Shown here: positions 5,080 to 17,798 of the stretch, piece after piece
Position numbering within the stretch: the first letter of the stretch is position 1
Layout of the letters: every line of letters starts with the position of its first letter
Assembly: GCA_016806145.1 (NCBI GenBank)
Contig: CP063167.1
Span: 1,422,501-1,486,500 of the forward strand
From: Variovorax paradoxus
GTDB taxonomy: Bacteria; Pseudomonadota; Gammaproteobacteria; Burkholderiales; Burkholderiaceae_C
Direction of reading: 5' to 3'
Length of the DNA stretch: 64,000 nucleotides
Translations under genes and position numbers: made by a program
The notes under the pieces: model-generated
The model's database searches: none
What the model saw: the letters and a program-made list of their open reading frames with translations, nothing else
What the model was told of the DNA's origin: nothing

Positions 5080-5121
5080 GAAATTGATAAAAAATCAGGC
5101 GCCGGGGACATTGGCTTGCCT

Positions 5122-6552
5122 ATGAACCCTTCTTGCCCTTCGGTCCGGGACGGACTGCCATCCGCCTCGCGCGGCCGAGCCATGCTGGTCGTGATGGTCG
5201 GCCTGTCGCTGGCCGTGCTCGACAACACCCTGCTCAATCTCGCATTGCCGGTCCTGGCGCGTGAGTTGCAAGTCAGTGCGGCGCAGGCGCTTTGGGTGGT
5301 CAATGCCTATCAGCTGGCCAGCCTCGCGCTGATCCTGCCCCTGGCGGCGCTCGGCGAACGCCTCGGCTATCGACGCGTCTACCTGGCCGGGATGCTGGTC
5401 TTTTCCCTGGCCTCGCTGGGGGCCCTGTGCGCGAACTCGCTGGCGGCGCTGATAGTGGCGCGCGCATTCCAAGGCTTGGGCGCGGCCGGGATCATGAGCG
5501 CCAACTCCGCGCTGGTGCGACTGATCCATCCCAAGGACCTGTTGGGCCGCGGCATGGCAGTGAATTCGCTGGTGGTGGCCACGGCGACCATGGCCGGTCC
5601 CACCGTGGCGGCGATGATTCTCTCCGTGGCTTCGTGGCCCTGGTTGTTCGCGGCGAACCTGCCGCTGGGACTGTTCACGCTGTGGCTGGGCCTTCGCGCG
5701 CTGCCTTCCAATCCCGATCCGCGTCCGACCGACGTCGCACCCTCGCCCTTCGATGTGCTGCTGAACATCCTGGTGTTCAGCCTGATCCTGCTCGGCGTCG
5801 GGCAATTGGGTGCGGACGCGCACGGTCGCGGCGTTACGGGAGCCCGGCCGTCTTCGGGGTGGCTGTTGCTCGGCGCGGGCCTGTGCGTGGGCGCCTGGTA
5901 CCTGCGCCGGCAGTGGCCGCTGAGCCGCCCCCTGTTTCCCGTGGACCTGCTGCGCATCCCGGTCTTCGCACTGTCGATGTGCGGCTCGGTCTGCGCCTTC
6001 TGTGCGCAGATGCTGGCCTACCTGGCCTTGCCATTCCTGTTGCTCGAGTCGCATGGCCTGTCGCCGCTCGAAGCCGGCATGCTGCTCACCGGCTGGCCTC
6101 TCGCGACGATGCTCACCGCACCGCTGGCGGGTCGGTTGATCGGGCGCTATGCCGACGGGTTGCTCGGCGGCGCCGGGATGGCCTTGTTCGCCTGCGGCCT
6201 GTGGCTGCTGGCCGCCATGCCGGACCAGGCCGCTGGCTGGGACATGGCGTGGCGCATGCTGCTGGCCGGTGGTGGCTTCGCGCTCTACCAGTCGCCGAAC
6301 AACCACGCCATCATGTCCGCGGCGCCCCTGTCGCGCAGCGGTGCCGCGGGCGGCATGCTCAGCTCGGCGCGAGTGGCGGGCCAAGCGCTGGGCACCGTGA
6401 TCCTGTCGGTCATCTTCAGCGTCTCGAACGGGCATGGCGGCGACGCCGAGATACTGGCATTGGTCACTGCCGGTGGCTTCGCGACCTTGGCAGGCATGTT
6501 CAGCATGCTGCGTCGACCGCGCACGAAACCCGCATCGGCCGCAGGAGGTTGA
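5122..6552 (+). CDS. MFS transporter, DHA2 (EmrB/QacA-like) drug exporter
   Basis: Proton-driven inner-membrane exporter of the 14-helix DHA2 group, 476 residues. The first helix carries LDNTLLNLALPVLARELQ, the DHA2 version of motif D1, followed by WVVNAYQLA and the loop motif LGERLGYRRVYLAG. The ATG at 5122 was preferred over an in-frame TTG two codons upstream because the TTG adds nothing conserved. Transcribed divergently from the fumarylacetoacetase string across an AT-rich region with an inverted repeat, so it may export a toxic pathway intermediate or a drug. Specificity is not predictable. Confidence 0.88.
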   Translation: MNPSCPSVRDGLPSASRGRAMLVVMVGLSLAVLDNTLLNLALPVLARELQVSAAQALWVVNAYQLASLALILPLAALGERLGYRRVYLAGMLVFSLASLGALCANSLAALIVARAFQGLGAAGIMSANSALVRLIHPKDLLGRGMAVNSLVVATATMAGPTVAAMILSVASWPWLFAANLPLGLFTLWLGLRALPSNPDPRPTDVAPSPFDVLLNILVFSLILLGVGQLGADAHGRGVTGARPSSGWLLLGAGLCVGAWYLRRQWPLSRPLFPVDLLRIPVFALSMCGSVCAFCAQMLAYLALPFLLLESHGLSPLEAGMLLTGWPLATMLTAPLAGRLIGRYADGLLGGAGMALFACGLWLLAAMPDQAAGWDMAWRMLLAGGGFALYQSPNNHAIMSAAPLSRSGAAGGMLSSARVAGQALGTVILSVIFSVSNGHGGDAEILALVTAGGFATLAGMFSMLRRPRTKPASAAGG

Positions 6553-6561
6553 GCAAGGCCT

Positions 6562-6585
6562 CGGGTGTCATCCCGTTGACACCCG
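6562..6585 (+). terminator. Stem-loop after DHA2 exporter: terminator or operator
   Basis: Perfect 9-base-pair stem (CGGGTGTCA / TGACACCCG) with a 6-base loop, starting 10 bases after the exporter stop codon. It lacks a T-run, which is common for stems in very GC-rich genomes. Its right arm contains TTGACA, a consensus -35 hexamer for the next operon, so the same symmetry could be an operator instead. Confidence 0.4.
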
Positions 6586-6605
6586 CGCGCGCGCTGCGTT
6601 AACCT
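6576..6605 (+). promoter_or_regulatory. Candidate sigma-70 promoter of the amide operon
   Basis: TTGACA at 6576-6581 is a perfect -35 hexamer; 18 bases later TAACCT (6600-6605) is a weak -10 keeping the T1, A2 and T6 positions. It would start transcription near 6612, giving a leader of about 240 nucleotides before the first gene at 6850, with the first hairpin beginning about 11 nucleotides in. Confidence 0.35.
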
Positions 6606-6622
6606 GCGCCCCGTTCCCTTCT

Positions 6623-6703
6623 CCGGCAGCTTTGCCGGATTTCCTCGGCGCCCTCGCGGCGCAACCGGCAGCTTCGCTGGTTCTCCCCTCGGCAGTTCTG
6701 CCG
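6623..6703 (+). promoter_or_regulatory. Leader with three hexaloop hairpins, candidate ANTAR (AmiR) target
   Basis: Three successive stem-loops lie in the leader. They are CCGGC-loop AGCTTT-GCCGG (6623-6638); AACCGGC-loop AGCTTC-GCTGGTT (about 6663-6682, one G-U pair); and CGGC-loop AGTTCT-GCCG (6690-6703). Each has a six-base loop starting AG. ANTAR proteins such as AmiR bind paired hairpins with six-base loops having A at loop position 1 and G at position 4. Here the A1 is present in all three but G4 is not, so this is a candidate only. The operon downstream encodes an AmiR-like ANTAR protein at 15325. The rest of the gap 6553-6849 holds no gene. Confidence 0.4.
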
Positions 6704-6755
6704 TCCCCCTCGTGTCCGCGGTCGCACCGCATTGCCGACGCGCCTGCGCGCGCTT

Positions 6756-6774
6756 CGCATGGCCTGGCCATGCG
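6756..6774. repeat. Perfect 9-1-9 palindrome upstream of the amide operon
   Basis: CGCATGGCC and GGCCATGCG flank a single T, 75 bases before the first gene and inside the predicted leader. It may be a terminator stem that an ANTAR protein would overcome, or an operator; there is no T-run after it. Confidence 0.35.
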
Positions 6775-6849
6775 CGCGTGCCGGCGCTTGCATCGGCATG
6801 GCGTCCCGGGCACGTCGATCCATCCAGACACCCCCAGGAGACAGCCACC

Positions 6850-8097
6850 ATGCACACCCCTTCTTCGCGTCCCTTCGCGCGGCTTGCCGGACTCTTCCTC
6901 GCCGCGGGCCTCGCCGCCTTCGGCACCCATGCCTTCGCCGCCGGCGAGCCGGTGCGCATCGGCGCCATCTTCGACAAGACCGGCGGCCTCAACATCTACG
7001 GCATCCAGCAGAGCCGGGCGCTGCGGCTCGCGGTCGACGAAATCAATGCGGCGGGCGGCGTGGCCGGCGCCAAGGTCGAGGTGGCCGAGGCCGACGCGCA
7101 GTCGGAGGACGCCAAGTACACGCAGTACACGACCACGCTGATCCTCAAGGACAAGGTGCAGGCGCTGTTCGCGGGCCTCACGAGCTCGAGCCGCGAGGCG
7201 ATCCGCCCGATCGTGCGACGCTCGAAGATCCCCTACTTCTATTCCTCGCTCTACGAAGGCGGCGCCTGCGACCGGCAGACCTTCGTGACCGGCGCCACGG
7301 CCTCGCAGCAGCTCAGCGTGCTCGTGAAGTGGGCGATCAAGAAGTACGGGCCCAAGGTCTACATCATGGCGCCCGACTACAACTTCGGCACCATCTCGGC
7401 GCAGTGGGTCAAGCTCTACGCCAAGGAGTTCGGCGGCGAGGTGGTCGGCGCCGACTTCCTGCCGCTCACGCTGACCGACTACTCGCCCACCATCAACAAG
7501 ATCCAGCAGGCCAAGCCCGATTTCGTGGTCGCGCTGCCGGTGGGCGCGAACCAGACCGGCTTCCTCGAGCAGATGGCGGCCGCGGGCCTGAAGAGCCGCG
7601 TGGGCGTGGTGTCGACCAACTATGGCGGCGGCAACCAGCAGGTGGTGGTGTCGCCGCAGGCTGGCGAGGGCATCGTGGCGGCGCTCGAATACTTCGCCTG
7701 GCTCGACACGCCGCGCAACAAGGCCTTCAAGGCTTCCTGGGAAAAAGCCTACGGCAACAAGGAGCCGGTGACCGCGGTCGCGGTCGACGTCTACAACGCG
7801 GTGCACCTGTGGGCCAAGGCCGCGAACAAGGCGAAGTCGGCCGAGCCCGCGAAGGTGATCCAGGCCTTCGAGGAGGGCGAGGGCGTGGCCTTCGACTCGC
7901 CGGCCGGTCCGGTGTCGATGCAGCCGAAGTCGCACCACGTGCGCCAGAACATCTACATCGGCGTGGGCACGAAGACGCAGAGCTTCGACATCGTCGAGAC
8001 CTACGCGTCGGTGGCGCCGAAGTTCGAGGACCAGGTCTGCGACCTGGTCGCCAAGCCGCAGACGGCGCAGCACTTCACGCCCGGCGCGTCGAACTGA
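6850..8097 (+). CDS. Amide/urea-type ABC transporter substrate-binding protein
   Basis: Periplasmic binding protein of the branched-chain amino acid/urea/short-chain amide group (Peripla_BP family 5/6), 415 residues. A signal peptide ends near residue 30 (AFA/AGEPVRIG). The fold start RIGAIFDKTGGLNIYG and the segment LFAGLTSSSREAIRP match this group and resemble the AmiC-like protein of the same operon. The start is preceded by CAGGAGACAGCCACC. First gene of a ten-gene operon with permeases, ATPases, two amidases and an amiCR pair, so the ligand is most likely an aliphatic amide, urea or a derivative; the exact ligand is unknown. It may be controlled by the hairpin leader upstream. Confidence 0.88.
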   Translation: MHTPSSRPFARLAGLFLAAGLAAFGTHAFAAGEPVRIGAIFDKTGGLNIYGIQQSRALRLAVDEINAAGGVAGAKVEVAEADAQSEDAKYTQYTTTLILKDKVQALFAGLTSSSREAIRPIVRRSKIPYFYSSLYEGGACDRQTFVTGATASQQLSVLVKWAIKKYGPKVYIMAPDYNFGTISAQWVKLYAKEFGGEVVGADFLPLTLTDYSPTINKIQQAKPDFVVALPVGANQTGFLEQMAAAGLKSRVGVVSTNYGGGNQQVVVSPQAGEGIVAALEYFAWLDTPRNKAFKASWEKAYGNKEPVTAVAVDVYNAVHLWAKAANKAKSAEPAKVIQAFEEGEGVAFDSPAGPVSMQPKSHHVRQNIYIGVGTKTQSFDIVETYASVAPKFEDQVCDLVAKPQTAQHFTPGASN

Positions 8098-8109
8098 GCG
8101 AGGCCCCCG

Positions 8110-8976
8110 ATGGCATGGGATCAATTGCTGACCGGCGTGCTCTCGTCGGTCGCCAGCGGCTCGGTGCTGCTGATCGCGACGCTCGGCCTGGCCGTGGTGT
8201 TCGGGCTGATGGGCGTGGTGAACCTCGCGCACGGCGAATTCATCATGTTCGGCGCCTATGCGGCGCTGACCGCGGTGCGCGCGGGCGTGCCGTTTCCGCT
8301 CGCGGTGGCGCTGGCCGCGCTGGCGGCCGCGGCCTTCGGCGCGCTGGTCGAATGGCTGATCGTGCGGCGCCTGCACGGCCGGCCCTTCGACACGCTGCTG
8401 GCCATGTGGGGCCTGAGCCTCGCGCTCTACCAGAGCGCGGTGCTGCTGTTCGGCACGGTCACGCCGGGCATCGGCATGCCGGCATCGAACGTGCGCATCG
8501 GCGACTACACGATCTCCAGCTACCTGCTGTTCCTGATCGCGGTGGCGGCGGTGCTGATCGCGGCCGTGTATGCGCTGCTCACGCGCACCAACTACGGCCT
8601 GATGGCGCGCGCCGCGATCCAGGACCCGGCCACCGCGGCCGCGATGGGCGTGCGCACGGTACGCATCAACAACCTCACCTTCGCCCTGGGCTGCGGCCTC
8701 GCGGGCCTGGCCGGCGCGATCCTGGTGCCGGCCGTGCCGGCCACGCCCAGCATGGGCTTCGCCTTCGGCATCAAGGCCTTCCTGGCGGTGGTGGTGGCGG
8801 GCCCGGTCACGCTCGCGGGCACCATCGCCGCGGGCGGCATCCTGGGCTCGGCCGCGAGCGCGGTGGCCAGCGTCTGGTCCACCGTCGCGGGCGACGTGGT
8901 GTTCTTCGTGATCACGCTCGTGGCCCTGCGCGCCTGGCCGCAGGGCATCTCCGAGCGCTGGCGCCTGAAGCTCTGA
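8110..8976 (+). CDS. ABC transporter permease, LivH/UrtB type
   Basis: First membrane subunit of the importer, 288 residues and largely hydrophobic. The segment GLAVVFGLMGVVNLAHGEFIM is the LivH-family hallmark near the N-terminus, and the C-terminal half carries the ATPase-docking loop region around TNYGLMARAAIQDPATAAAMG. It starts 12 bases after the binding-protein stop codon and is followed 13 bases later by the fused second permease. With the neighbours it forms a complete importer for the amide-type ligand. Confidence 0.9.
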   Translation: MAWDQLLTGVLSSVASGSVLLIATLGLAVVFGLMGVVNLAHGEFIMFGAYAALTAVRAGVPFPLAVALAALAAAAFGALVEWLIVRRLHGRPFDTLLAMWGLSLALYQSAVLLFGTVTPGIGMPASNVRIGDYTISSYLLFLIAVAAVLIAAVYALLTRTNYGLMARAAIQDPATAAAMGVRTVRINNLTFALGCGLAGLAGAILVPAVPATPSMGFAFGIKAFLAVVVAGPVTLAGTIAAGGILGSAASAVASVWSTVAGDVVFFVITLVALRAWPQGISERWRLKL

Positions 8977-8989
8977 ACGGAGGCCACGC

Positions 8990-10843
8990 ATGAACATGAG
9001 CAGAACCCTGGCCGCACCCGTGGCCACGACCGCGGCCACCACGCGCCGCGCGCTTCCCTGGTGGCTGGCCACCGTCGCCGGCACCGTCGTGCTGGGCGCC
9101 GGCGCCTTCTTCGTCGACGAGTACCTCGCCTACCTCGCGAGCTCCTGGCTGATCTTCGGCATGCTGGGCCTGAGCCTGGACATGGTGTGGGGCCGCGGCG
9201 GCATGCTGAGCCTCGGGCAGACGGCCTTCTTCGGCCTCGGCGGCTACGCGGGCAGCGTGGCGGCGATCAACCTCGCGAGCGTCACCGGCAACACGCTGGT
9301 GTGGTCGCTGCCGGTCGGCGCGATCGTGGGCGCGGCCGCCGCCGGCGCGGTCGGCTGGCTGCTGTTCCACGGCCGCCTCGGCGCGCTGCAGGCCACCATC
9401 CTGACCTACACCGTCACCCTGCTGCTGTGGACCGGCAGCATCTCGTTCTCGGCGCGCTTCGGCGACGCGGTGGTGGGCGGCGACAACGGCCTGTCGAACA
9501 TCCCGGGCATGGTGCTGGGCTTCGGCGCCGACGCGCAGGGGCTCGGGCCGCAGGGCACCTTCGCCTGCGTGCTGGCGGTCTCGGCGCTGGTGCTGCTGGG
9601 CGTGCGCGCGCTGCTGCGATCGCCCTTCGGCACGGTCGTCGACTGCGTGCGCCTCGACGGCCCCAAGACCGAGCTGCTGGGCTACGACGTGCGGCGCTGC
9701 CAGCTCGTGGTGTTCACGCTGGCCGGCGGCATCGCGGGCCTGGCCGGCGCGCTCTACGGCGCCTGGGCCAACTACCTCAACCCCTCGCTGTTCAGCGCGC
9801 AGCAGGCGCTGCTGGTGCCGATCTACGTGCTGGTGGGCGGGCTCGGCACGCTGGCCGGTCCGTTCGTGGGCGCGGTGGCGGTCGGCGGGCTGTCGTACTG
9901 GCTGGGCGGCGGCGTGGTCGGCGGGCAGACCACGCTGATCATGGGCGTGGCGCTGATCCTGCTCGTGCTGTTCCTGCGCGGCGGGCTGCTCGGCGGTCTC
10001 GGCCGGTTGTGGGCGCTGCGCGGGCCGGGCGGCGCGCAGGGCAAGGCGCGCCAGGCCAAGACCGCGATGGACGTGGACCTGGTGCGCGGCCTGCGCGAAG
10101 GCGCGGCCGTGCCGGCGCCGGTGCTCGAGATCCGCGACGGGGTCAAGCGCTTCGGCGGCGTGGTGCCCGTCAACCGCGTCACCCAGCGCTTCGCGCCGGG
10201 CCGCGTGCGCTGCCTGATCGGGCCGAACGGCGCGGGCAAGAGCTCGCTGCTGCGCTGCCTCACGGGCACGCACCTGCTCGACGCGGGCGAGATCGTGCTC
10301 GACGGGCGACCGGTCACGCGCTGGATGCCGTACCGCCGCGTGCAGGCCGGCGTGGGCATCAAGATGCAGGTGGCGCAGGTGTTCGGCGAACTGAGCGTGC
10401 GCACCAACCTCTGGATCGCCGCCTACAGCCGCGACCGCGATGCCGCGGTGGCCGACCGGCTCAGCGAGCGCACCCTGCGCGCGCTCGGCCTCGAGACGCT
10501 GGCCGAGCGCGATGCGGCCGACCTCTCGCACGGCGAGCAGCAATGGCTGGACCTCGGCATGGTGCTGTGCCTGCAGCCCTCGGTGGTGCTGCTCGACGAG
10601 CCGGCCGCGGGCATGACCGGCGACGAGCGCCGCGAGCTCTCGCAGCTGGTGCGCGTGCTCGCCGAAACGGCGGCCGTGGTCGTGGTCGAGCACGACATGG
10701 CCTTCGTGCGCACGCTCGACGCCGAAGTGACCGTCCTGCACCGCGGCGAGGTCTTCGCCCAGGGCGACCTCGACACCCTGCGCCAGGACGAACGCATCCT
10801 GGACATCTATCTCGGGAGACAGCAGCATGTTCGAAGCCATTGA
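8990..10843 (+). CDS. Fused ABC transporter permease-ATPase (LivM-LivG / UrtC-UrtD type)
   Basis: One 617-residue protein joins the second permease and one ATPase. Residues 1 to about 345 are hydrophobic LivM-type sequence with the family string SSWLIFGMLGLSLDMVWGRGG. About 380-617 are an ATPase with Walker A GPNGAGKSS near 411, signature LSHGEQQ near 512 and Walker B VVLLDEPAAG near 532. In most genomes these are two genes. An ATG two codons later is an alternative start. The fusion has no internal stop or obvious internal start, and it overlaps the next ATPase gene by 17 bases, so the two ATPase halves are translationally coupled. Confidence 0.9.
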   Translation: MNMSRTLAAPVATTAATTRRALPWWLATVAGTVVLGAGAFFVDEYLAYLASSWLIFGMLGLSLDMVWGRGGMLSLGQTAFFGLGGYAGSVAAINLASVTGNTLVWSLPVGAIVGAAAAGAVGWLLFHGRLGALQATILTYTVTLLLWTGSISFSARFGDAVVGGDNGLSNIPGMVLGFGADAQGLGPQGTFACVLAVSALVLLGVRALLRSPFGTVVDCVRLDGPKTELLGYDVRRCQLVVFTLAGGIAGLAGALYGAWANYLNPSLFSAQQALLVPIYVLVGGLGTLAGPFVGAVAVGGLSYWLGGGVVGGQTTLIMGVALILLVLFLRGGLLGGLGRLWALRGPGGAQGKARQAKTAMDVDLVRGLREGAAVPAPVLEIRDGVKRFGGVVPVNRVTQRFAPGRVRCLIGPNGAGKSSLLRCLTGTHLLDAGEIVLDGRPVTRWMPYRRVQAGVGIKMQVAQVFGELSVRTNLWIAAYSRDRDAAVADRLSERTLRALGLETLAERDAADLSHGEQQWLDLGMVLCLQPSVVLLDEPAAGMTGDERRELSQLVRVLAETAAVVVVEHDMAFVRTLDAEVTVLHRGEVFAQGDLDTLRQDERILDIYLGRQQHVRSH

Positions 10844-11522
10844 GATCAGCGGCGGCTACGGCAAGACATCGATCGTCGAGCGCGCCAGCCTGCGCGTGGG
10901 GCGCGGCGAGATCGTCGCGCTGCTCGGCCGCAACGGCGTGGGCAAGTCCACGCTGATGCGCCTGCTGGTCGGCCAGGCCACGCCCATGGGCGGCAACACG
11001 CGCCTCGACGGCCGGCCGCTGCCCGAGCGCACCGACGACCGCGCGCGCTGCGGCCTGGGCTACGTGCCGCAGGGGCGCTTCGTGTTCCCGCGGCTGTCGG
11101 TCAGCGAGAACATCGCGCTGGCGGCCGTGGCCTGCGGCCATCCGCGCGCCGAGGCGATCGCGCGCGCCTTCGCCGACTTTCCGGCGCTGGTGCCCAAGGC
11201 CAACGACCTCGCGGGCCGGCTCAGCGGTGGCCAGCAGCAGATCCTCGCGATGGCGCGCGCGCTGGCCACGCGGCCGAAGCTGCTGCTGCTCGACGAGCCG
11301 ACCGAGGGCGTGCAGCCCTCGATCGTCGACGAGATCGCCGAGGTGCTGCTGCGGCTGCGCCGCGACGGCCTGTCGGTGCTGGTCGCCGAGCAGGACCTGA
11401 ACTTCTGCCTCTCGATCGCCGAGCGCGCCTACGTCATGGACCAGGGCCGCATCGTGCGCGAGACGCGCAAGGCCGAGCTCGAGGGCGACCGCGCGCTCCT
11501 GCAGGAACTGCTCGGCGTCTGA
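10827..11522 (+). CDS. ABC transporter ATPase, LivF/UrtE type
   Basis: Second ATPase of the amide/urea-type importer, 231 residues, the usual LivF length. Walker A GRNGVGKST lies near residue 33, signature LSGGQQQ near 132 and Walker B LLLLDEPTEG near 152, followed by the family string VQPSIVDEI. The start overlaps the fused permease-ATPase gene by 17 bases and has CGGGAGACAGCAGC before it. It would pair with the ATPase half of the fusion protein at the cytoplasmic face. Confidence 0.92.
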   Translation: MFEAIEISGGYGKTSIVERASLRVGRGEIVALLGRNGVGKSTLMRLLVGQATPMGGNTRLDGRPLPERTDDRARCGLGYVPQGRFVFPRLSVSENIALAAVACGHPRAEAIARAFADFPALVPKANDLAGRLSGGQQQILAMARALATRPKLLLLDEPTEGVQPSIVDEIAEVLLRLRRDGLSVLVAEQDLNFCLSIAERAYVMDQGRIVRETRKAELEGDRALLQELLGV

Positions 11523-11565
11523 GCCCCCACATCCACGCACACATCCAAAGAGAGGAACGAACACC

Positions 11566-12576
11566 ATGGACCACGAGATCTTCGAGGCGGGCGACATCGC
11601 CCTGCAATCGGGCCGCATGCTGCGCAACGCGAAGCTGGCCTACAAGACCTACGGCAAGCTCAATGCCAAGCGCGACAACGCCATCGTCTACCCGACCTGG
11701 TTCGCGAGCACGCACGCCGACAACGAATGGCTGATCGGGCCCGGCAAGGCGCTCGATCCGTCGGAGTACTTCATCGTCGTGCCGAACTCCTTCGGCAACG
11801 GCGTCTCGAGCTCGCCGAGCAACCAGCCCGCGCCCAACAACCGCGGCCGCTTTCCGAACGTGACCGTCTACGACAACGTGGTGCAGCAGCACCGGCTGGT
11901 GACCGAGCACCTGGGCATCGACAGCCTGCGCCTGGTCACGGGCTGGTCGCTGGGCGCGGTGCATGCGTTCCACTGGGCCGCGCTGTACCCGGACATGGTG
12001 CAGCGGCTGCTGCCGTTCCAGGGCGCCGCGCGCGCGTCGCGCCACTTCCAGGTCTTCTTCGCGAGCGTGAAGGCCGCGCTGCAGGCCGACGCCGAATGGC
12101 GCGAGGGCTTCTACGAGCGCCAGCCCGAGCGCGGCCTGCGCGCCGCCGGCCGGGTGTACGCGGGCTGGGGCTTCTCGCAGAAGTTCCTGCGCGACCGGCT
12201 CGACATCGAGGCACTGGGCTTCGCCTCGCTCGAGGACTTCCTGATCGAGTTCTGGGAAGGCTGGCTGCTGTCGAAGGATGCCAACAACCTGGTCGCGTCG
12301 CTGTGGACCGGGCAGCACGGCGACATCGCCGACAACCCGGTCTACCGGGGCGACTTCGTCGCGGCGCTGTCGGCGATCAAGGCGCGCGCCATCGTCATGC
12401 CCTCGTCGAGCGATCTCTACTTTCCGCCCGAGGATTCGGCCTTCGAGGTCGCGCACATGCCCAACGCCGAGCTGCGCGTGCTGCCTTCCGACTGGGGCCA
12501 CCTGGCGGGCAAGGGCCTGCACGAACCCGACAACGCGTTCATCGACAGCGCGCTGCGCGAACTGCTGGCGGCATGA
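11566..12576 (+). CDS. Alpha/beta hydrolase, MetX-like (homoserine acetyltransferase superfamily)
   Basis: Cytoplasmic alpha/beta-fold enzyme, 336 residues. The string LAYKTYGKLNAKRDNAIVYP is typical of the MetX superfamily. The nucleophile elbow is GWSLGA with Ser128; SSSDLYFPPED offers the acid and DWGHLAG the histidine. Members of this branch act as hydrolases rather than homoserine acyltransferases. The gene lies between the transporter and an amidase, so hydrolysis of an ester, amide or nitrile-derived intermediate is plausible. The biosynthetic role is unlikely because no sulfur-metabolism gene is nearby. Confidence 0.75.
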   Translation: MDHEIFEAGDIALQSGRMLRNAKLAYKTYGKLNAKRDNAIVYPTWFASTHADNEWLIGPGKALDPSEYFIVVPNSFGNGVSSSPSNQPAPNNRGRFPNVTVYDNVVQQHRLVTEHLGIDSLRLVTGWSLGAVHAFHWAALYPDMVQRLLPFQGAARASRHFQVFFASVKAALQADAEWREGFYERQPERGLRAAGRVYAGWGFSQKFLRDRLDIEALGFASLEDFLIEFWEGWLLSKDANNLVASLWTGQHGDIADNPVYRGDFVAALSAIKARAIVMPSSSDLYFPPEDSAFEVAHMPNAELRVLPSDWGHLAGKGLHEPDNAFIDSALRELLAA

Positions 12577-12794
12577 CCATGGCAACCGTTCCCACCCAGC
12601 CCGCCGCACCCTGGAACGCCGACAGCGTGGCCGCGCATCGCCGCGCCGCGGGCCTCGCGGCGCTCGACCCCGCGCTGTGCGGCGAGGTCGCGGCGATCCT
12701 CGAGGACCTGCGCACGGGCCTGCGCGAGATGCCCGGGCGTGCCTGGTTCGCGCTCGTTCCACCGTCGACGGAGACCGATCATGTCCATCGCTGA
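12573..12794 (+). CDS. Small protein preceding amidase (AtzG-like position)
   Basis: A 73-residue ORF that starts inside the hydrolase stop codon (ATGA) and ends 14 bases into the amidase gene, so it is tightly coupled on both sides. The sequence is helical-looking (AAHRRAAGLAALDPALCGEV) and has no motif I recognise. In cyanuric-acid operons a small AtzG-type subunit precedes and stabilises the amidase AtzE; this gene has the same position and size, but I see no clear sequence match. A second ATG two codons in is an alternative start. Confidence 0.5.
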   Translation: MTMATVPTQPAAPWNADSVAAHRRAAGLAALDPALCGEVAAILEDLRTGLREMPGRAWFALVPPSTETDHVHR

Positions 12795-14217
12795 GACCAT
12801 CGACGGCGCTGGCGTGGCGCAATTGGCCGCGCTGATCCGCCGCGGCGAGCTCGGCGCGGTCGAGCTGGCCGAACGCCGGCTGGCCGACATCGAACGCCGC
12901 GCCGCGCGCACCAATGCCTTCGTGGCCGTCGACCGCGAAGGCGCGCTGGCCCAGGCGCGCGAGGCCGACCTCGCGCTGGCGCGCGGACTGTCGCTGGGGC
13001 CGCTGCATGGCGTGCCGATCGCGGTGAAGGACAACGTGCTGACCGCCGGCCTCGGCAGCAGCGCGGCCTCGGCCGTGCTGGCCGACGCGCCGCTGCAGGG
13101 CGAGGCACCGCTGGTCGCGCGGCTGCGCCGGGCCGGCGCCATCGTGGTGGCCAAGACCAACATGCACGAGTGGGCCTACGGCGCGACCAACAAGGGATCG
13201 CACCATGGCCCCACGCGCAATCCCTGGGACCCGCGCGCGATCACCGGCGGCTCCAGCGGCGGCTCGGCCGCCTGCGTGGCCGACGGGCTGCTGCCGCTGG
13301 CCATCGGCACCGACACCGGCGGCTCGATCCGCATTCCCGCCGCGGCCTGCGGCATCTCGGGCATCAAGCCGGGCACCGGCCGCGTCGAGGGCGAGGGCGT
13401 GCTGCCGCTGGCCTGGAGCTTCGATGCCGCCGGGCCGATGGCGCGCAGTGCCGAGGACCTGTGGCTGGGGCTCGACGCGATGTGGCCCGGCGCGGCCGGC
13501 GATTCCTCGCGCCATGCCGCGCAGTTCCGCGAGGCACGCGGCCGCGCCCGGCTGCGCATCGGCGTGCTGGCGGGCGAGGGCTTCGAGACCGCGTCCGACG
13601 TGGGCCGGGCCTTCGAGGCGGCGCTCGAGGTCTTCGGCCAGCGCGGCAGCGATCTCGTGCCGGTGCCGGTGCGCGGCATGGCGGCGGTGTTTGCGGCCTG
13701 GAAGGCCATCATGTACGCCGAGGCCAGCACCTTCCACCGTCCGCTGATGCACGACCGGGCGCGGCACTACGCACCCGACGTGCGCGCGCTGCTGCATGCG
13801 GGCGAGAGCGTGTCGGCCGTCGACTACCTCGCGGCGCAGCAGTTCCGCGGCGCCTTCTGCGCCGCGTTCGCGCGCGACATGGCGGGCCTCGATGCGCTCG
13901 CGCTGCCGACGCTGCCCGTGACCGCGCCGCCCTTGGCAGAATCGCGCATCGAATTCGCCGGCCGCACGACCACCGTCCAGGACGCCATGACCGCCATGCC
14001 CTGCCTCGCCAACTTCACCGGCCTGCCGGCGGTGAGCCTGCCCTGCGGCTTCGGCGACACGGGCCTGCCGGTGGGCCTCACGCTGATCGGCCATGCCGGC
14101 GGCGAGTTCGCGCTGCTCGGGCTGGCCGCGGCCTTCCAGGACGACACCGCCTGGCACGCCATGCGGCCCGGCCATGCGACGGCGACAGGCCGCGAGGAGG
14201 GCGTGCATGTCCGATGA
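12781..14217 (+). CDS. Amidase (amidase signature family, AtzE/GatA-like)
   Basis: Cytoplasmic amidohydrolase of 478 residues. The complete Ser-cisSer-Lys triad is visible: Lys83 in AVKDN, Ser158 in the ITGGSSGGSA loop and Ser182 in GTDTGGS. Because of the small upstream gene and the amide transporter, a substrate such as an N-substituted amide or urea derivative taken up by the importer is likely, releasing ammonia. The tRNA-amidotransferase role (GatA) is unlikely, as no gatB or gatC is near. The ATG at 12781 was chosen because it begins at the conserved length and overlaps the small ORF by 14 bases. Confidence 0.9.
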   Translation: MSIAETIDGAGVAQLAALIRRGELGAVELAERRLADIERRAARTNAFVAVDREGALAQAREADLALARGLSLGPLHGVPIAVKDNVLTAGLGSSAASAVLADAPLQGEAPLVARLRRAGAIVVAKTNMHEWAYGATNKGSHHGPTRNPWDPRAITGGSSGGSAACVADGLLPLAIGTDTGGSIRIPAAACGISGIKPGTGRVEGEGVLPLAWSFDAAGPMARSAEDLWLGLDAMWPGAAGDSSRHAAQFREARGRARLRIGVLAGEGFETASDVGRAFEAALEVFGQRGSDLVPVPVRGMAAVFAAWKAIMYAEASTFHRPLMHDRARHYAPDVRALLHAGESVSAVDYLAAQQFRGAFCAAFARDMAGLDALALPTLPVTAPPLAESRIEFAGRTTTVQDAMTAMPCLANFTGLPAVSLPCGFGDTGLPVGLTLIGHAGGEFALLGLAAAFQDDTAWHAMRPGHATATGREEGVHVR

Positions 14218-15325
14218 GATCGGCGTGGGCGTGCTGTTCGCCCAGACCGGCAACATGGCCGTGACCGAGCAGGCGCTGCTGAGCGGCACGCTGGTCGCCA
14301 TCGACGAGATCAACTCGGGCGGCGGCGTCGCGGGCCGGCCCATCGTGCCGATCATCGAGGACCCGGGCCCCGATCCCGCGAGCTACCGCGACATCGCGCG
14401 CCGCATGGTGCTGCACCACCAGGTGCCGGTGATCTTCGGCTGCTGCTCGTCGGCCAGCCGCAAGGCCGTGCTGCCGGTGGTCGAGCGCCATGGCGCGGTG
14501 CTGTTCTATCCCTCGGTGTACGAGGGCTTCGAGTATTCGCCCAACGTGATCTACACCGGACCCACGCCCGCGCAGACCATCGTGCCGCTGATCAAGTACC
14601 TGTTCGCGCACCACGGGCGGCGCTTCTTCCTGGTCGGTTCCGAGTATGTGTTCGCGCGCGAGATCTCGCGCATCGCGAAGGAGTTTCTGCTCGAGAGCGC
14701 GGGCAGCGTCGCGGGCGAAACCTACCTGCCGATGGGCGCGCCCGACAGCGCCTTCGCCGAGGTGGCCGAGCGCATCGCCGCCGCGCGGCCCGACGTGGTG
14801 CTCAGCACCGTGGTGGGCGCCGACACCGCGCGGCTCTATGCCGCCTGCCATGCCATCGGCGCCACCTCGGCCGAACACCCGATCGCGAGCCTCACCGCGA
14901 GCGAGGCCGAGATCGCGGCACTGAGCCCGGCCGCGCGCGCGGGGCACCTCACGGTCGCGCCCTATTTCGCGGGCATCGAGAGCCCGGCCAGCGCGCGCTT
15001 CACCGCGCTCTACGAGAAGCGCTACGGCGCCGGCCGCCGGCCCAACATGTATGCCGAGGCCGGCTACCTGCAGGTGCACCTGTTCGCGCGCGCCGTGCCG
15101 CGCGAAGGCGCGCCCGACCCCGACCGCATCGTGCGCAGCCTCGGTGGCACGCGCCATGCTTCGGCCCAGGGCGAGGTCGAGATCGACGCCGACACCAACC
15201 ACACCGCGCTCAAGGCCCGCATCGGGCGCTCGCGCGAGGATGGCGGTTTCGACCTGCTGTGGGAGGATGCCTCCATCGTCCGCCCCGATCCCTACCTCGT
15301 CGCCTACGAACGAAAGATCCTCTGA
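14207..15325 (+). CDS. amiC: AmiC-like cytoplasmic amide sensor, negative regulator of AmiR
   Basis: A periplasmic-binding-protein fold of 372 residues without any signal peptide: it begins MSDEIGVGVLFAQTGNMAVTEQ, right at the fold. In Pseudomonas AmiC is such a cytoplasmic protein; it sequesters the antiterminator AmiR until an inducing amide binds. The string GCCSSASRKAVLPVVE and YPSVYEGFEYSPNVIYTG fit the AmiC/UrtA group. It overlaps the amidase gene by 11 bases and the amiR-like gene follows with a TGATG overlap, the same order as in P. aeruginosa (amiC-amiR). A plain transport role is excluded by the lack of export signal. Confidence 0.85.
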   Translation: MSDEIGVGVLFAQTGNMAVTEQALLSGTLVAIDEINSGGGVAGRPIVPIIEDPGPDPASYRDIARRMVLHHQVPVIFGCCSSASRKAVLPVVERHGAVLFYPSVYEGFEYSPNVIYTGPTPAQTIVPLIKYLFAHHGRRFFLVGSEYVFAREISRIAKEFLLESAGSVAGETYLPMGAPDSAFAEVAERIAAARPDVVLSTVVGADTARLYAACHAIGATSAEHPIASLTASEAEIAALSPAARAGHLTVAPYFAGIESPASARFTALYEKRYGAGRRPNMYAEAGYLQVHLFARAVPREGAPDPDRIVRSLGGTRHASAQGEVEIDADTNHTALKARIGRSREDGGFDLLWEDASIVRPDPYLVAYERKIL

Positions 15326-15948
15326 TGTCGCCCGATCCGATCCAGCTGCGCTCCCTGCGTGACATCCGGGTCGCCGTCATCCATCCCGACGACGAGGACG
15401 CCCGCGTGCTGTGCGAGCAGCTGCGCCGCTTTGGCTGCCGCGTCACCGCGCTGTGGCCCGAGCCGAACCACCTGCCCGAGGGCACCGAGGCCGTGTTCTT
15501 CAGCATCCAGTCGGAGCGCGATGCCGCGCACCCGTGGCTGGCCGGTTCCTCGCACGCGGTGCTGATCGCGCTGCTGGCCTACGAGAACCCGGCCGTGCTC
15601 GAGGCTGCCGCGGCGGCCAACGTGCACGGCGTGCTGCCCAAGCCGATTCGTCCCTTCGGCGTGCTCGCCACGCTGTACGTCGCACGCATGCTGTTCCGCT
15701 ACGAGGAGCGGCTGCTCAACCGCATCGCCAAGCTCGACGAGACTTTGCGCACGCGGCGCATCGTCGAGCGCGCGATGAAGATCCTCGCCACGCGCCAGGG
15801 CATCTCGGAGGACGAGGCCTACGCCATCATCCGGCGCGAGGCCATGCGCAAGCAGTTGCCGGTGTCGTCGATGGCCGAGTCGATCGTGCATGCGGAAGCG
15901 ATCTACGGTTTGCCGCCCGATCGCGGCACTTCCGATCCGGCCGAGTGA
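15325..15948 (+). CDS. amiR: AmiR-like ANTAR transcription antiterminator
   Basis: Cytoplasmic RNA-binding regulator, 207 residues. Residues about 10-125 form a receiver-like (pseudo-receiver) domain. Then comes a coiled coil (FRYEERLLNRIAKLDETLRTRR) and a C-terminal ANTAR three-helix domain, about 145-195, with IVERAMKILATRQGISEDEAY and RREAMRK. Known AmiR binds leader RNA hairpins and prevents early termination; AmiC holds it inactive. Here it is coupled to both neighbours by one-base overlaps (TGATG). The triple-hairpin leader at 6623-6703 is the obvious candidate target. Confidence 0.9.
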   Translation: MSPDPIQLRSLRDIRVAVIHPDDEDARVLCEQLRRFGCRVTALWPEPNHLPEGTEAVFFSIQSERDAAHPWLAGSSHAVLIALLAYENPAVLEAAAAANVHGVLPKPIRPFGVLATLYVARMLFRYEERLLNRIAKLDETLRTRRIVERAMKILATRQGISEDEAYAIIRREAMRKQLPVSSMAESIVHAEAIYGLPPDRGTSDPAE

Positions 15949-17159
15949 TGGCCCGCCCTCCCTTCGAGAGTCCGGAACGCTTCGGACTCGATACTTCGTT
16001 CGCGCGCGATCCGAGCGATCCGTTCGGTGATGGCCCGTTGAGCGGCCTCGGCTTCGCCGCCAAGGAGGTGTTCGACCTCGCGGGCCACGTCACGCGCGCG
16101 GGCAATCCCGACTGGCTGCGCACGCATGCGCCGGCCACGGCCGACGCACCCGCGGTCGCGCGCCTGCTCGAGGCCGGCGCGCGGTTGCAAGGGCGAACGC
16201 TCAGCGACGAACTCGCGTTCTCGCTCGCGGGCGAGAACCTGCACTACGGCACGCCGCTGAACCCGCGCGCACCCGGCCGCGTGCCCGGCGGTTCGTCGAG
16301 TGGCTCGGCCTCTGCCGTGGCCGGTGGCTGCGTCGACTTCGCGCTGGGCACCGACACCTCGGGCTCGGTGCGCATCCCGGCCAGCTACTGCGGTCTGTAC
16401 GGTCTGCGGCCCACGCATGGCGCGATCGAGGCGCGCGGCGTCACGCCGCTGGCGCCGGCATTCGACACGGTCGGCTGGTTCGCCGCGACCGCGGCGGTGC
16501 TCGAGCGCGTGGGCGCGGTGCTGCTGCCGCCGGGCGAGGCACGGCCGCTGCGGCGCGTCGTCCCGATGGCCGATGCCTTCGACGATGCCGCGCCGGGCGT
16601 GGCGACAGCACTTCGTCCCGCGCTCGATCGCCTCGCGTCGCTGGACCTGGCCTTCGATGCGCCCGCGCGAGGCTTGCCGCTGGGTGCCGCGGCACAGACC
16701 TACCGCGTGCTGCAGAGCGCCGAGGTCTGGCGCACGCATGGCGAATGGTTCGAGCGCACCCGGCCGTCGATGGCGCCCGAGATCGCGGCGCGGCTGCGCG
16801 CGGCGTCGCAGGTCACGGCCCGGGAGATCGATGCCGCCCAACGCGAGGCCGACGCGCTGCGCGCGAGGATCGACGACCTGCTCGCGCACGACCGCGTGCT
16901 GTGCCTGCCGACCGCGCCCGACGTGGCGCCGCTGCTGGGCGCATCGGCACAGCCCGATGCGCAGACCCGCATGCGCGTGCTGGCCCATACCTGCATCGCG
17001 GGGCTGTGCGGCTTGCCGCAGGTCAGCCTGCCGCTGGGGGTGGTCGATGGCCTGCCCGTGGGGCTGGGGTTGATCGCGGGGCGGGGGAGGGATCGGGATC
17101 TGCTGGCGTTGGTGGGGCGGATCGCATCCGACGATGCGAACAAGACGGCGAGGGCTTGA
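15948..17159 (+). CDS. Second amidase of the amide operon (amidase signature family)
   Basis: Amidohydrolase of 403 residues, shorter at its N-terminus than the first amidase of the operon. The triad is Lys39 (GFAAKEVF), Ser116 (GGSSSGSA) and Ser140 (GTDTSGS). The shortened N-terminal segment and the strings FGDGPLSGLGFAAKEVFDLAG and GTPLNPRAPGRVPGGSSSGS resemble the AtzF/allophanate-hydrolase-like and plant AMI1-like branch. Start ATG overlaps the amiR stop codon (GTGATG). Two distinct amidases in one operon suggest a two-step hydrolysis or two substrates. Confidence 0.88.
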   Translation: MARPPFESPERFGLDTSFARDPSDPFGDGPLSGLGFAAKEVFDLAGHVTRAGNPDWLRTHAPATADAPAVARLLEAGARLQGRTLSDELAFSLAGENLHYGTPLNPRAPGRVPGGSSSGSASAVAGGCVDFALGTDTSGSVRIPASYCGLYGLRPTHGAIEARGVTPLAPAFDTVGWFAATAAVLERVGAVLLPPGEARPLRRVVPMADAFDDAAPGVATALRPALDRLASLDLAFDAPARGLPLGAAAQTYRVLQSAEVWRTHGEWFERTRPSMAPEIAARLRAASQVTAREIDAAQREADALRARIDDLLAHDRVLCLPTAPDVAPLLGASAQPDAQTRMRVLAHTCIAGLCGLPQVSLPLGVVDGLPVGLGLIAGRGRDRDLLALVGRIASDDANKTARA

Positions 17160-17206
17160 ACTACATTCGGCTGAAGAAGGCCATCGATGCCAAGGACCAG
17201 GGATAA
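17157..17206 (+). pseudogene. Remnant of a BrnT-like toxin C-terminus
   Basis: After the amidase stop codon an open stretch encodes the tail NYIRLKKAIDAKDQG and a stop at 17204-17206. This resembles the C-terminal end of BrnT toxins (pattern IISLRKAN.RE). A BrnA-like start follows four bases later, as in intact brnTA pairs. Nothing upstream of the tail is left; it has been replaced by the amidase gene end. The identification rests on a short match and is tentative. Confidence 0.35.
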
Positions 17207-17210
17207 CGAG

Positions 17211-17798
17211 ATGGAGCAGTTCGAGCAGAACCTGCTCCAGTCGATCGATGAAATGAAGCGCGGCGAGTTTGCCGCCGTTCATGCGCCGGAGCAGATCGAG
17301 GCCCACCTACGTGGCAGGCCGATGGACTCCAGCGAGGCGACGCCGAAGGCGTCGACCCCTGTCGGATCGAATCTCGTCTTCGTCTTCGGCACCCTGAAAG
17401 AGGGCTACCCCAACTTCGCCACCAACCGCGGCCGGCGCATCCCCGGCGACTTCGTCACGCGGGAGCGCTATCCGCTGTACCTGATGGGCGAGCGCTTCTC
17501 GCCCTGGCTGGTCTTCCTGCCAGGCGAAGGAGAGCGCATCGTCGGTCAGCTGTTCGAGGTCGACGACGCGGCGCTGGCCGCCATGGACCTGCTCGAGAGG
17601 ATCGACGCGTCGGACGGTTATCGGCGTGTCCCGATCGCTGTCGAACGCGTTGGCGATGCCGTTGGGCAGCGGCTGACCGTTCACGCCTACGTCAAGCCAA
17701 CGGAGCAGTTCGACGTGACGCAGGCGAGGCTGGGGCCGCTGGCGGAATACACGATGGCGCACGCCAAGCTCTATCGATCGCGGGGCGTCGTGTCCTGA
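17211..17798 (+). CDS. GGACT-like gamma-glutamylcyclotransferase family protein with BrnA-like N-terminus
   Basis: Product of 195 residues. Residues about 55-185 are a gamma-glutamylamine cyclotransferase (AIG2/GGCT) domain: VFVFGTLKEGYPNF corresponds to the family motif YGTLKxGxPN that binds the gamma-glutamyl moiety, and PWLVFLPGEGERIVGQLFEVD and LERIDASDGYRRV supply the conserved acidic region. Residues 1-45 (FEQNLLQSIDEMKRGEF, HAPEQIEAHLRGRP) instead resemble the start of BrnA-type antitoxins, cut before the DNA-binding domain. The native cyclotransferase start may be the ATG at 17322 (158 residues). Starts at 17187 or 17211 give the fusion; AGGGATAACGAG precedes 17211. Confidence 0.75.
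   Translation: MEQFEQNLLQSIDEMKRGEFAAVHAPEQIEAHLRGRPMDSSEATPKASTPVGSNLVFVFGTLKEGYPNFATNRGRRIPGDFVTRERYPLYLMGERFSPWLVFLPGEGERIVGQLFEVDDAALAAMDLLERIDASDGYRRVPIAVERVGDAVGQRLTVHAYVKPTEQFDVTQARLGPLAEYTMAHAKLYRSRGVVS

Follow-up and report, generated by a model that had tools for sequence, protein, structure and literature searches.

In the classic model of amidase regulation, amide-bound AmiC frees AmiR, and this ANTAR protein then holds two leader RNA hairpins, P1 and P2, thereby blocking terminator formation. The operon and its neighbors analyzed here lie in a 64,000-nucleotide (nt) stretch of Variovorax paradoxus DNA (GCA_016806145.1, contig CP063167.1, positions 1,422,501 to 1,486,500; hereafter the window), in which genes for an ATP-binding cassette (ABC) transporter, two amidases, an AmiC-like sensor, and an AmiR-like protein follow a leader with three hexaloop hairpins of altered loop sequence. 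The amiE leader of Pseudomonas aeruginosa is reported to carry two hexaloops with A at position 1 (A1) and G at position 4 (G4), plus a terminator (PMC3369931), the two hexaloops of an ANTAR target are joined by a linker of about 2-25 nt (PMC8164766), and systematic evolution of ligands by exponential enrichment (SELEX) with NasR favored loop closure by a C:G pair along with A1 and G4 (PMC7496416). For EutV, PMC8934654 describes G4 as obligatory for efficient antitermination; this base stacks on Tyr164, and in P2 it also forms bonds with Arg142, Lys149, and Glu160. Some predicted ANTAR targets are not associated with a terminator (PMC3369931 and PMC8164766). The open-access literature searched yielded no title or abstract on the Variovorax operon, and a single review was listed for ANTAR control combined with Rho-dependent antitermination.

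The leader hairpins are listed in Table 1 with the other features. Three non-overlapping AG-hexaloop hairpins with stems of at least 4 bp occurred in 0 of 20,000 dinucleotide shuffles of positions 6606-6735, and two in 12 of 20,000, and H1, H3, and H4 form the sole AG-hexaloop triple within 130 nt when both strands of the window were scanned. A tandem-hairpin pattern search of two Variovorax genomes matched at the leader locus only. The initial annotation, which had described three consecutive AG-hexaloop hairpins, was therefore right about the hairpins but not about their being strictly consecutive, since H2 intervenes. The linkers (7 nt between H3 and H4; 23 nt between H1 and H3, with H2 inside) fit the dual-hexaloop rule, and the third hexaloop hairpin is extra relative to a dual-hexaloop ANTAR target. 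A C:G closing pair and A1, both favored by NasR SELEX, are kept in all three window loops, and A1 is present in 6/6 Variovorax loops (three per genome, two genomes). The A1 and U6 bases of the H1 and H4 loops are able to pair, so that the minimum-energy fold draws tetraloops in these two hairpins. Folding of the 246-nt leader gave a z of -2.9 versus shuffles (2/200 as good), and pair probabilities for H1-H4 in the full leader of both Variovorax were 0.70-0.99, or 0.85-0.99 if each stem's outermost pair is disregarded. Rfam returned no window match at the gathering level and, for 6540-6900, one chance-level small nucleolar RNA model (E 0.41).

Among 101 Variovorax genomes searched, two contained the operon with its leader: that of the window and that of Variovorax sp. 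J2P1-59 (G013; the second Variovorax). In the leader search (limit E 1; own genome included), every one of the 101 genomes gave some match; the strong ones had E values of 1.5e-72 and 3.4e-40, and the next among the matches listed covered 25 bases at E 2.9e-4. That the leader is a genome repeat was rejected, a strong match being found in just 2/101 genomes (among the matches listed). Between the two Variovorax, the substrate-binding protein (SBP) and AmiC are each 91% identical and AmiR is 89% identical. The H1-H4 block is identical at 77/82 positions versus 146/208 at four-fold sites in the gene for the SBP (p 1e-7), and over the six leader stems 69/70 bases are identical, the sole change lying in H6. 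Over that span, the unpaired positions comprised 61 identical and 19 changed bases with 3 gaps (61/80 plus gaps), and the difference between stems and unpaired positions was significant (Fisher 5e-6; 4e-5 without gaps), in a test tilted somewhat towards structure, because the window sequence served to pick the stems, and H5 (6718-6730) scarcely forms in the predicted folds (0.01 and 0.2). The G.U pair of H3 is kept in both Variovorax, the H1 loop of the second, AGCUCG (AGCTCG in the DNA), remains a hexaloop, and 6/6 linker substitutions between H1 and 6719 are C-T exchanges. These data support RNA-level constraint on the leader stems; the existence and conservation of the leader are confirmed, and the comparison indicates a structured RNA.

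Seven operons outside Variovorax share the core order of the window, namely SBP, permease, permease-ATPase, ATPase, amidase, AmiC, and AmiR; they belong to Salipiger, Octadecabacter, Sneathiella, Nioella, G613, and plasmids of Rhizobium sp. TH2 and Vibrio nigripulchritudo. The AmiR scan gave eight loci, of which four besides that of Variovorax sp. J2P1-59 were same-order (Salipiger, Octadecabacter, Sneathiella, and Nioella), while SBP searches added G613 (matches in 3/394 genomes, the other two being Salipiger and Nioella) and the Rhizobium and Vibrio plasmids. Like the window, all seven carry a TTGAC box followed by a hexaloop hairpin. Unlike the window, they have two hairpins, G4 in 11 of the 14 loops (U in the other 3), and a U-run terminator (7/7), and the MetX-like gene and the second amidase are neither matched nor annotated in them (L017-L020, L090, L100, and L101). 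The earlier statement that Variovorax has three hairpins instead of two was thus confirmed, with H1, H3, and H4 set against P1 and P2 in the relatives.

All seven relatives possess a classic ANTAR-type leader, in which P1 starts 34-37 nt after the TTGAC box and is followed by P2, whose stem is AGC/GCU or GGC/GUC and which overlaps the U-run terminator in the minimum-energy fold (7/7). In the seven-row alignment, 94.6% of the P1/P2 cells pair (0/500 shuffles as high), 4/8 pairs change on both sides (3/500 shuffles), and the covariation score was reached by none of the shuffles. Loop position 1 is A in 4/14, G in 9/14, and C in 1/14, and these loop counts indicate that the A1/G4 rule is already loosened within the clade. 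Stem covariation, which had been proposed as a check, was therefore present in the related leaders, whereas the two Variovorax versions offer a single, one-sided stem change, that in H6. Given classic leaders and compensatory stem changes in seven relatives, AmiR control through RNA is well supported by sequence comparison for this operon type.

The wider searches yielded no further Variovorax-type operon at the order, family, class, or phylum level. AmiR was matched in 18/300 genomes at the order level (E 1e-25), 1/369 at the class level, and 7/319 at the phylum level, and the SBP in 1/399 at the family level; these counts include the window's own genome, which is the sole match at the family and class levels. 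Fifteen relatives (P0001-P0015) were compared as proteins, with their leader DNA left out, and both L092 and a second V. nigripulchritudo plasmid (H43) were left out of the comparison. L102-L106 and L021 were left out of the leader analysis. In L102-L106, AmiC-AmiR lies 5' of a transporter whose SBP is 30-34% like that of the window. In L021 (9127-10576, Cypionkella psychrotolerans), AmiR adjoins an amidase fragment and amiC pieces with overlapping matches, and no SBP or matching permease match occurs in the locus, which looks like a broken remnant.

The first dual-hexaloop scan of AmiR leaders was too strict, since of the sites accepted later it found only those of Salipiger and Octadecabacter, along with three further sites judged spurious. 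Its replacement scored no loop letters and sought P1, P2, and a terminator. This loop-blind scan solved 17 of 28 regions, five of them same-order operons, with G4 in 13/17 P1 and 13/17 P2 loops; L085 P2, L079_-1422, and L093_urtA look mis-assigned by eye and are kept in these counts, but L085, L079_-1422, and L093_urtA are excluded from the loop table although they were solved. No solution was obtained for 11/28 regions: the window, L030, L080, L028 before the SBP gene, L079_-11896, L022, L086_-131 and L088_-11 (both with little upstream DNA), L091, L094, and L093_amiE. In four other Burkholderiales loci (L075, L077, L078, and L082), the leader precedes Urt-like transporters, and its P1, gcggc[AGGGCU]gccgc, is nearly the window H4, from which it differs in the loop at positions 3 and 4 only. 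Unlike the window, these loci have G3 and G4, a P2 of the form ggc[UANGAA]gcc, and a terminator, and their AmiC-AmiR genes lie 5' of the transporter.

In an AmiR tree of 53 rows (midpoint-rooted drawing), the L075, alphaproteobacterial, and window types group together (97/86), the latter two being nested (98/95); the window falls in a 6-row set (100/98), and the wider window-side group is weak (81/66). Classic-form leaders lie on both sides of the Variovorax branch, which suggests that the Variovorax leader is a derived form.

The window's own genome holds another AmiC-AmiR-transporter-amidase locus, L028 (G000:C2:2451000-2470000). An ANTAR-like leader with a terminator precedes its amiC, with a P2, ggagc[AGUGAA]gcucc, having A1 and G4 and an assigned P1 loop, ACGACG, without G4; a P2-like ggc[AATGAA]gcc was seen by eye before the substrate-binding gene, a region left unsolved by the scan. 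A second transporter copy (SBP 58%) with an amidase is present in that genome at L029 (3393-10548; G000:C2:498000-512000), which has no amiR match, no separate amiC match adjoining, and, by eye, no such hairpins just upstream. On two Paracoccus plasmids (L091 and L094), AmiC-like, AmiR-like, nitrilase- or hydratase-like, and transporter genes are followed by a urease cluster, an arrangement that suggests AmiR control of urease there.

The regulatory proteins of the window matched their assignment, which was borne out by Pfam domains and by the solved P. aeruginosa pair. AmiR carries AmiR_N (PF21332, 111.5 bits) and ANTAR (PF03861, 55.2 bits), both above the Pfam cut-offs, AmiC matches Peripla_BP_5 (PF13433, 396.5 bits), and the best solved relatives include AmiC 1pea and AmiR 1qo0. 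Alignments of AmiC to solved relatives begin at residue 3 or 7; the protein thus starts at the mature domain and should remain in the cytoplasm. With residue numbering and RNA contacts of EutV taken from PMC8934654, the window AmiR keeps R142, E160, Y164, R168, and M172, and has R for K143 and K147, M for K149, R for N173, Q for R175, and P for R177. Residue 149 is Val in the seven same-order relatives, Thr in L075, L077, L078, and L082, Thr or Ser in 14/15 of the nearer protein relatives P0001-P0015 (Met in P0010), and Lys in most other aligned AmiR proteins. A matched change of Lys149 and G4 was rejected as a simple explanation, since the Thr149 group keeps G4 in 8/8 loops and the Val149 relatives in 11/14.

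How transcription might stop in the window leader was then considered. A relaxed scan listed H1 followed by UUUCCUCG and an H1:H3 stem followed by UUCUCCCC, and the window fails the terminator rule at both places (H1:H3 stem with UUCUCCCC; H1 with UUUCC). The second Variovorax has weak candidates, in that H1 with UUUCU meets the terminator rule unaltered and the H1:H3 stem with UUUUCUCC passes once the stem limit is raised to 65 nt. The base composition of 6612-6720 is 43% C, 27% G, and 5.5% A, and the highest 78-nt C-over-G excess there beats 99% of such windows across the 64 kb; C-rich linkers of this kind fit Rho loading sites but are no proof of them. The self-complementary AGCU is common to the H1 and H3 loops and is retained in both Variovorax, with H1 loop positions 5-6 changed. 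The H1:H3 stem, without flanking pairs, is favored over the local hairpins by about 1 kcal/mol (-27.3 versus -26.3; -27.2 versus -26.2). At the point where H4 is newly completed, local H1 falls to 0.36 and 0.38, and in the window this drop is due to H1:H4 pairing at transcript lengths of about 90-105 nt. As any two similar hairpins could pair in this way, the predicted pairing of H1 with H3 or H4 is weak evidence.

We favor the reading, to which we give a probability of roughly 0.58, that the leader is AmiR's RNA target and that read-through of this altered leader depends on AmiR. Amide-bound AmiC would free AmiR, the freed AmiR would bind the A1 hexaloops of the leader RNA, and RNA polymerase would then proceed past the leader to the transporter and amidase genes. 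Without AmiR, transcription would stop in the leader by a non-classic stop, either by Rho acting on the C-rich single-stranded linkers or by H1 pairing with H3 (or H4) into a long stem, which AmiR binding would prevent. We infer that AmiR likely binds the altered loops, that an amide is likely the signal, and that a leader stop without AmiR is likely. The operon has AmiC/AmiR genes, A1, C:G closing pairs, and a leader position close to the predicted 5' end, as in the classic model, from whose form the Variovorax leader has most likely moved away. More tentatively, it might be a re-coded ANTAR switch, in which AmiR reads A1-G2-Y3-U4 across three hairpins and acts on a non-U-run stop (Rho, or hairpin-hairpin pairing via the AGCU loops).

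Several observations weigh against AmiR-dependent read-through. As the initial annotation had it, A1 is kept and G4 is not: G4 occurs in 0/6 Variovorax loops, all of which have U4, in four distinct loop sequences. Lys149, which contacts G4 in EutV, is Met in the window AmiR. Two Variovorax leaders in all are available for comparison, and in the relatives the number of further pair types, one of the five covariation measures, does not exceed that in shuffles (281/500). Once H3 is complete, the local hairpins beat the H1:H3 stem (0.99 and 0.97). Three separate scans, one of them covering 6450-7050, found no U-run intrinsic terminator in the window leader. The proposed antitermination leader was thus supported in part, by the AmiC/AmiR assignment, the constraint on the stems, and the classic leaders in 7/7 relatives; with no intrinsic terminator visible for the hairpins to exclude, classic antitermination is not demonstrated for the window.

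The lack of a terminator and of G4, together with the replaced Lys149, could also mean that the ANTAR element has decayed, with terminator and G4 lost on the Variovorax branch, the operon being constitutive or promoter-controlled and the hairpins only shielding the mRNA 5' end. We consider such decay unlikely, because the stems are held tighter than the unpaired bases and the H1-H4 block tighter than four-fold sites, the AmiC and AmiR identities quoted above have been retained between the two Variovorax, and A1, G2, and the C:G closing pair, common to three hairpins, are hardly a product of decay. AmiR might instead act on translation or RNA stability, as some predicted ANTAR targets without terminators may act on translation (PMC3369931 and PMC8164766); this appears improbable, since H4 ends 146 nt 5' of the SBP start codon and the GGAGA ribosome site lies outside all named hairpins. 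That the inverted repeats serve a repressor as operators in the DNA, each being a near-perfect dyad downstream of a promoter-like box, is very improbable given their asymmetric loops with AG on the 5' side, the retained G.U pair of H3 and the U-A to U-G change of H6, the unequal spacing of the dyad centers (42 and 24 nt), and the failure to recognize any DNA-binding regulator among the ten proteins scanned.

Table 1. Predicted features of the leader and operon (positions in the window)
Feature	Position	Strand	Remarks
Promoter-like TTGACA - 18 nt - TAACCT	6576..6605	+	sequence match; weak second hexamer
H1 hairpin, loop AGCUUU	6622..6639	+	tccggc[AGCTTT]gccgga; stem same in second Variovorax
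H2 hairpin, five-base loop CUCGC	6648..6662	+	between H1 and H3
H3 hairpin, loop AGCUUC	6663..6682	+	aaccggc[AGCTTC]gctggtt; 20/20 bases same in second Variovorax
H4 hairpin, loop AGUUCU	6690..6703	+	cggc[AGTTCT]gccg
H6 hairpin, 8 bp	6756..6774	+	one pair-keeping change (U-A to U-G); without U-run 3'
SBP, signal-like N-terminus, UrtA-like but under UrtA cut-offs	6850..8097	+	profile matches
ABC permease, UrtB-like	8110..8976	+	Pfam/NCBIfam
ABC permease fused to ATPase, UrtC-UrtD-like	8990..10843	+	Pfam/NCBIfam
ABC ATPase, UrtE-like	10827..11522	+	Pfam/NCBIfam
MetX-like alpha/beta hydrolase	11566..12576	+	NF005757 above cut-off; GWSLG at residue 126
73-aa open reading frame 5' of amidase A	12573..12794	+	without family match
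Amidase A, amidase-signature family	12781..14217	+	K/S/S (Lys/Ser/Ser) motifs present
AmiC-like sensor without signal peptide	14207..15325	+	AmiC 1pea, E 2.2e-80
AmiR-like pseudo-receiver and ANTAR protein	15325..15948	+	AmiR 1qo0, E 2.1e-23
Amidase B	15948..17159	+	NF006169 above cut-off; K/S/S motifs present

The operon (6850-17159) runs in a single direction, with gene junctions that overlap or leave gaps of 12-43 bp, and the window is part of the 2.48-Mb contig C2 within a 9.4-Mb genome. The predicted gene content, that is, a transporter, two amidases, a signal-less AmiC-like protein, and an AmiR-like ANTAR protein, was confirmed by Pfam/NCBIfam and solved relatives, and two genes that had gone unnamed were added, for the MetX-like hydrolase and the 73-aa protein; an AtzG/GatC-like role for the latter is a guess from position alone. 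All the NCBIfam Urt subunit models listed score under their cut-offs (for example, 356.3 of 494.8 bits for the SBP). The permease-ATPase fusion, UrtC-like plus UrtD-like, is one 617-aa protein in the window and in the same-order relatives. Upstream lies a major facilitator superfamily transporter gene (5116-6552), and downstream is a gene for a gamma-glutamyl cyclotransferase-like protein (17187-17798). For a leader peptide from the GTG at 6712, in frame with the SBP, no ribosome site was seen.

As to the TTGACA promoter proposed earlier, TTGACA itself is present (6576-6581), but the second hexamer, TAACCT (6600-6605), matches TATAAT at 3/6 positions, and a stricter promoter scan listed none for the window leader, leaving a sequence match only. 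The distance from the TTGAC box to the first hexaloop hairpin is 34-46 nt in 9/9 leaders and 34-37 nt in 8/9; in the window it is 46 nt.

The Variovorax operon is thus a natural case in which the protein and the hairpins are kept, every loop carries U4, and seven relatives are classic, so that the ANTAR recognition rule becomes directly testable; it also raises the question of whether the stops under ANTAR control can include kinds other than intrinsic terminators. Compared with the eut leaders and EutV of Enterococcus faecalis, the window shares the ANTAR domain and hexaloop hairpins with A1; the eut system differs in that EutV is activated by phosphorylation through EutW, the loops have G4, and P2 overlaps the terminator (PMC3369931 and PMC8934654). 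With the amidase operon of P. aeruginosa, it has in common an AmiC sensor and an AmiR pseudo-receiver-ANTAR protein encoded with amidase genes, whereas the ABC transporter and the amidase-signature enzymes are features of the window.

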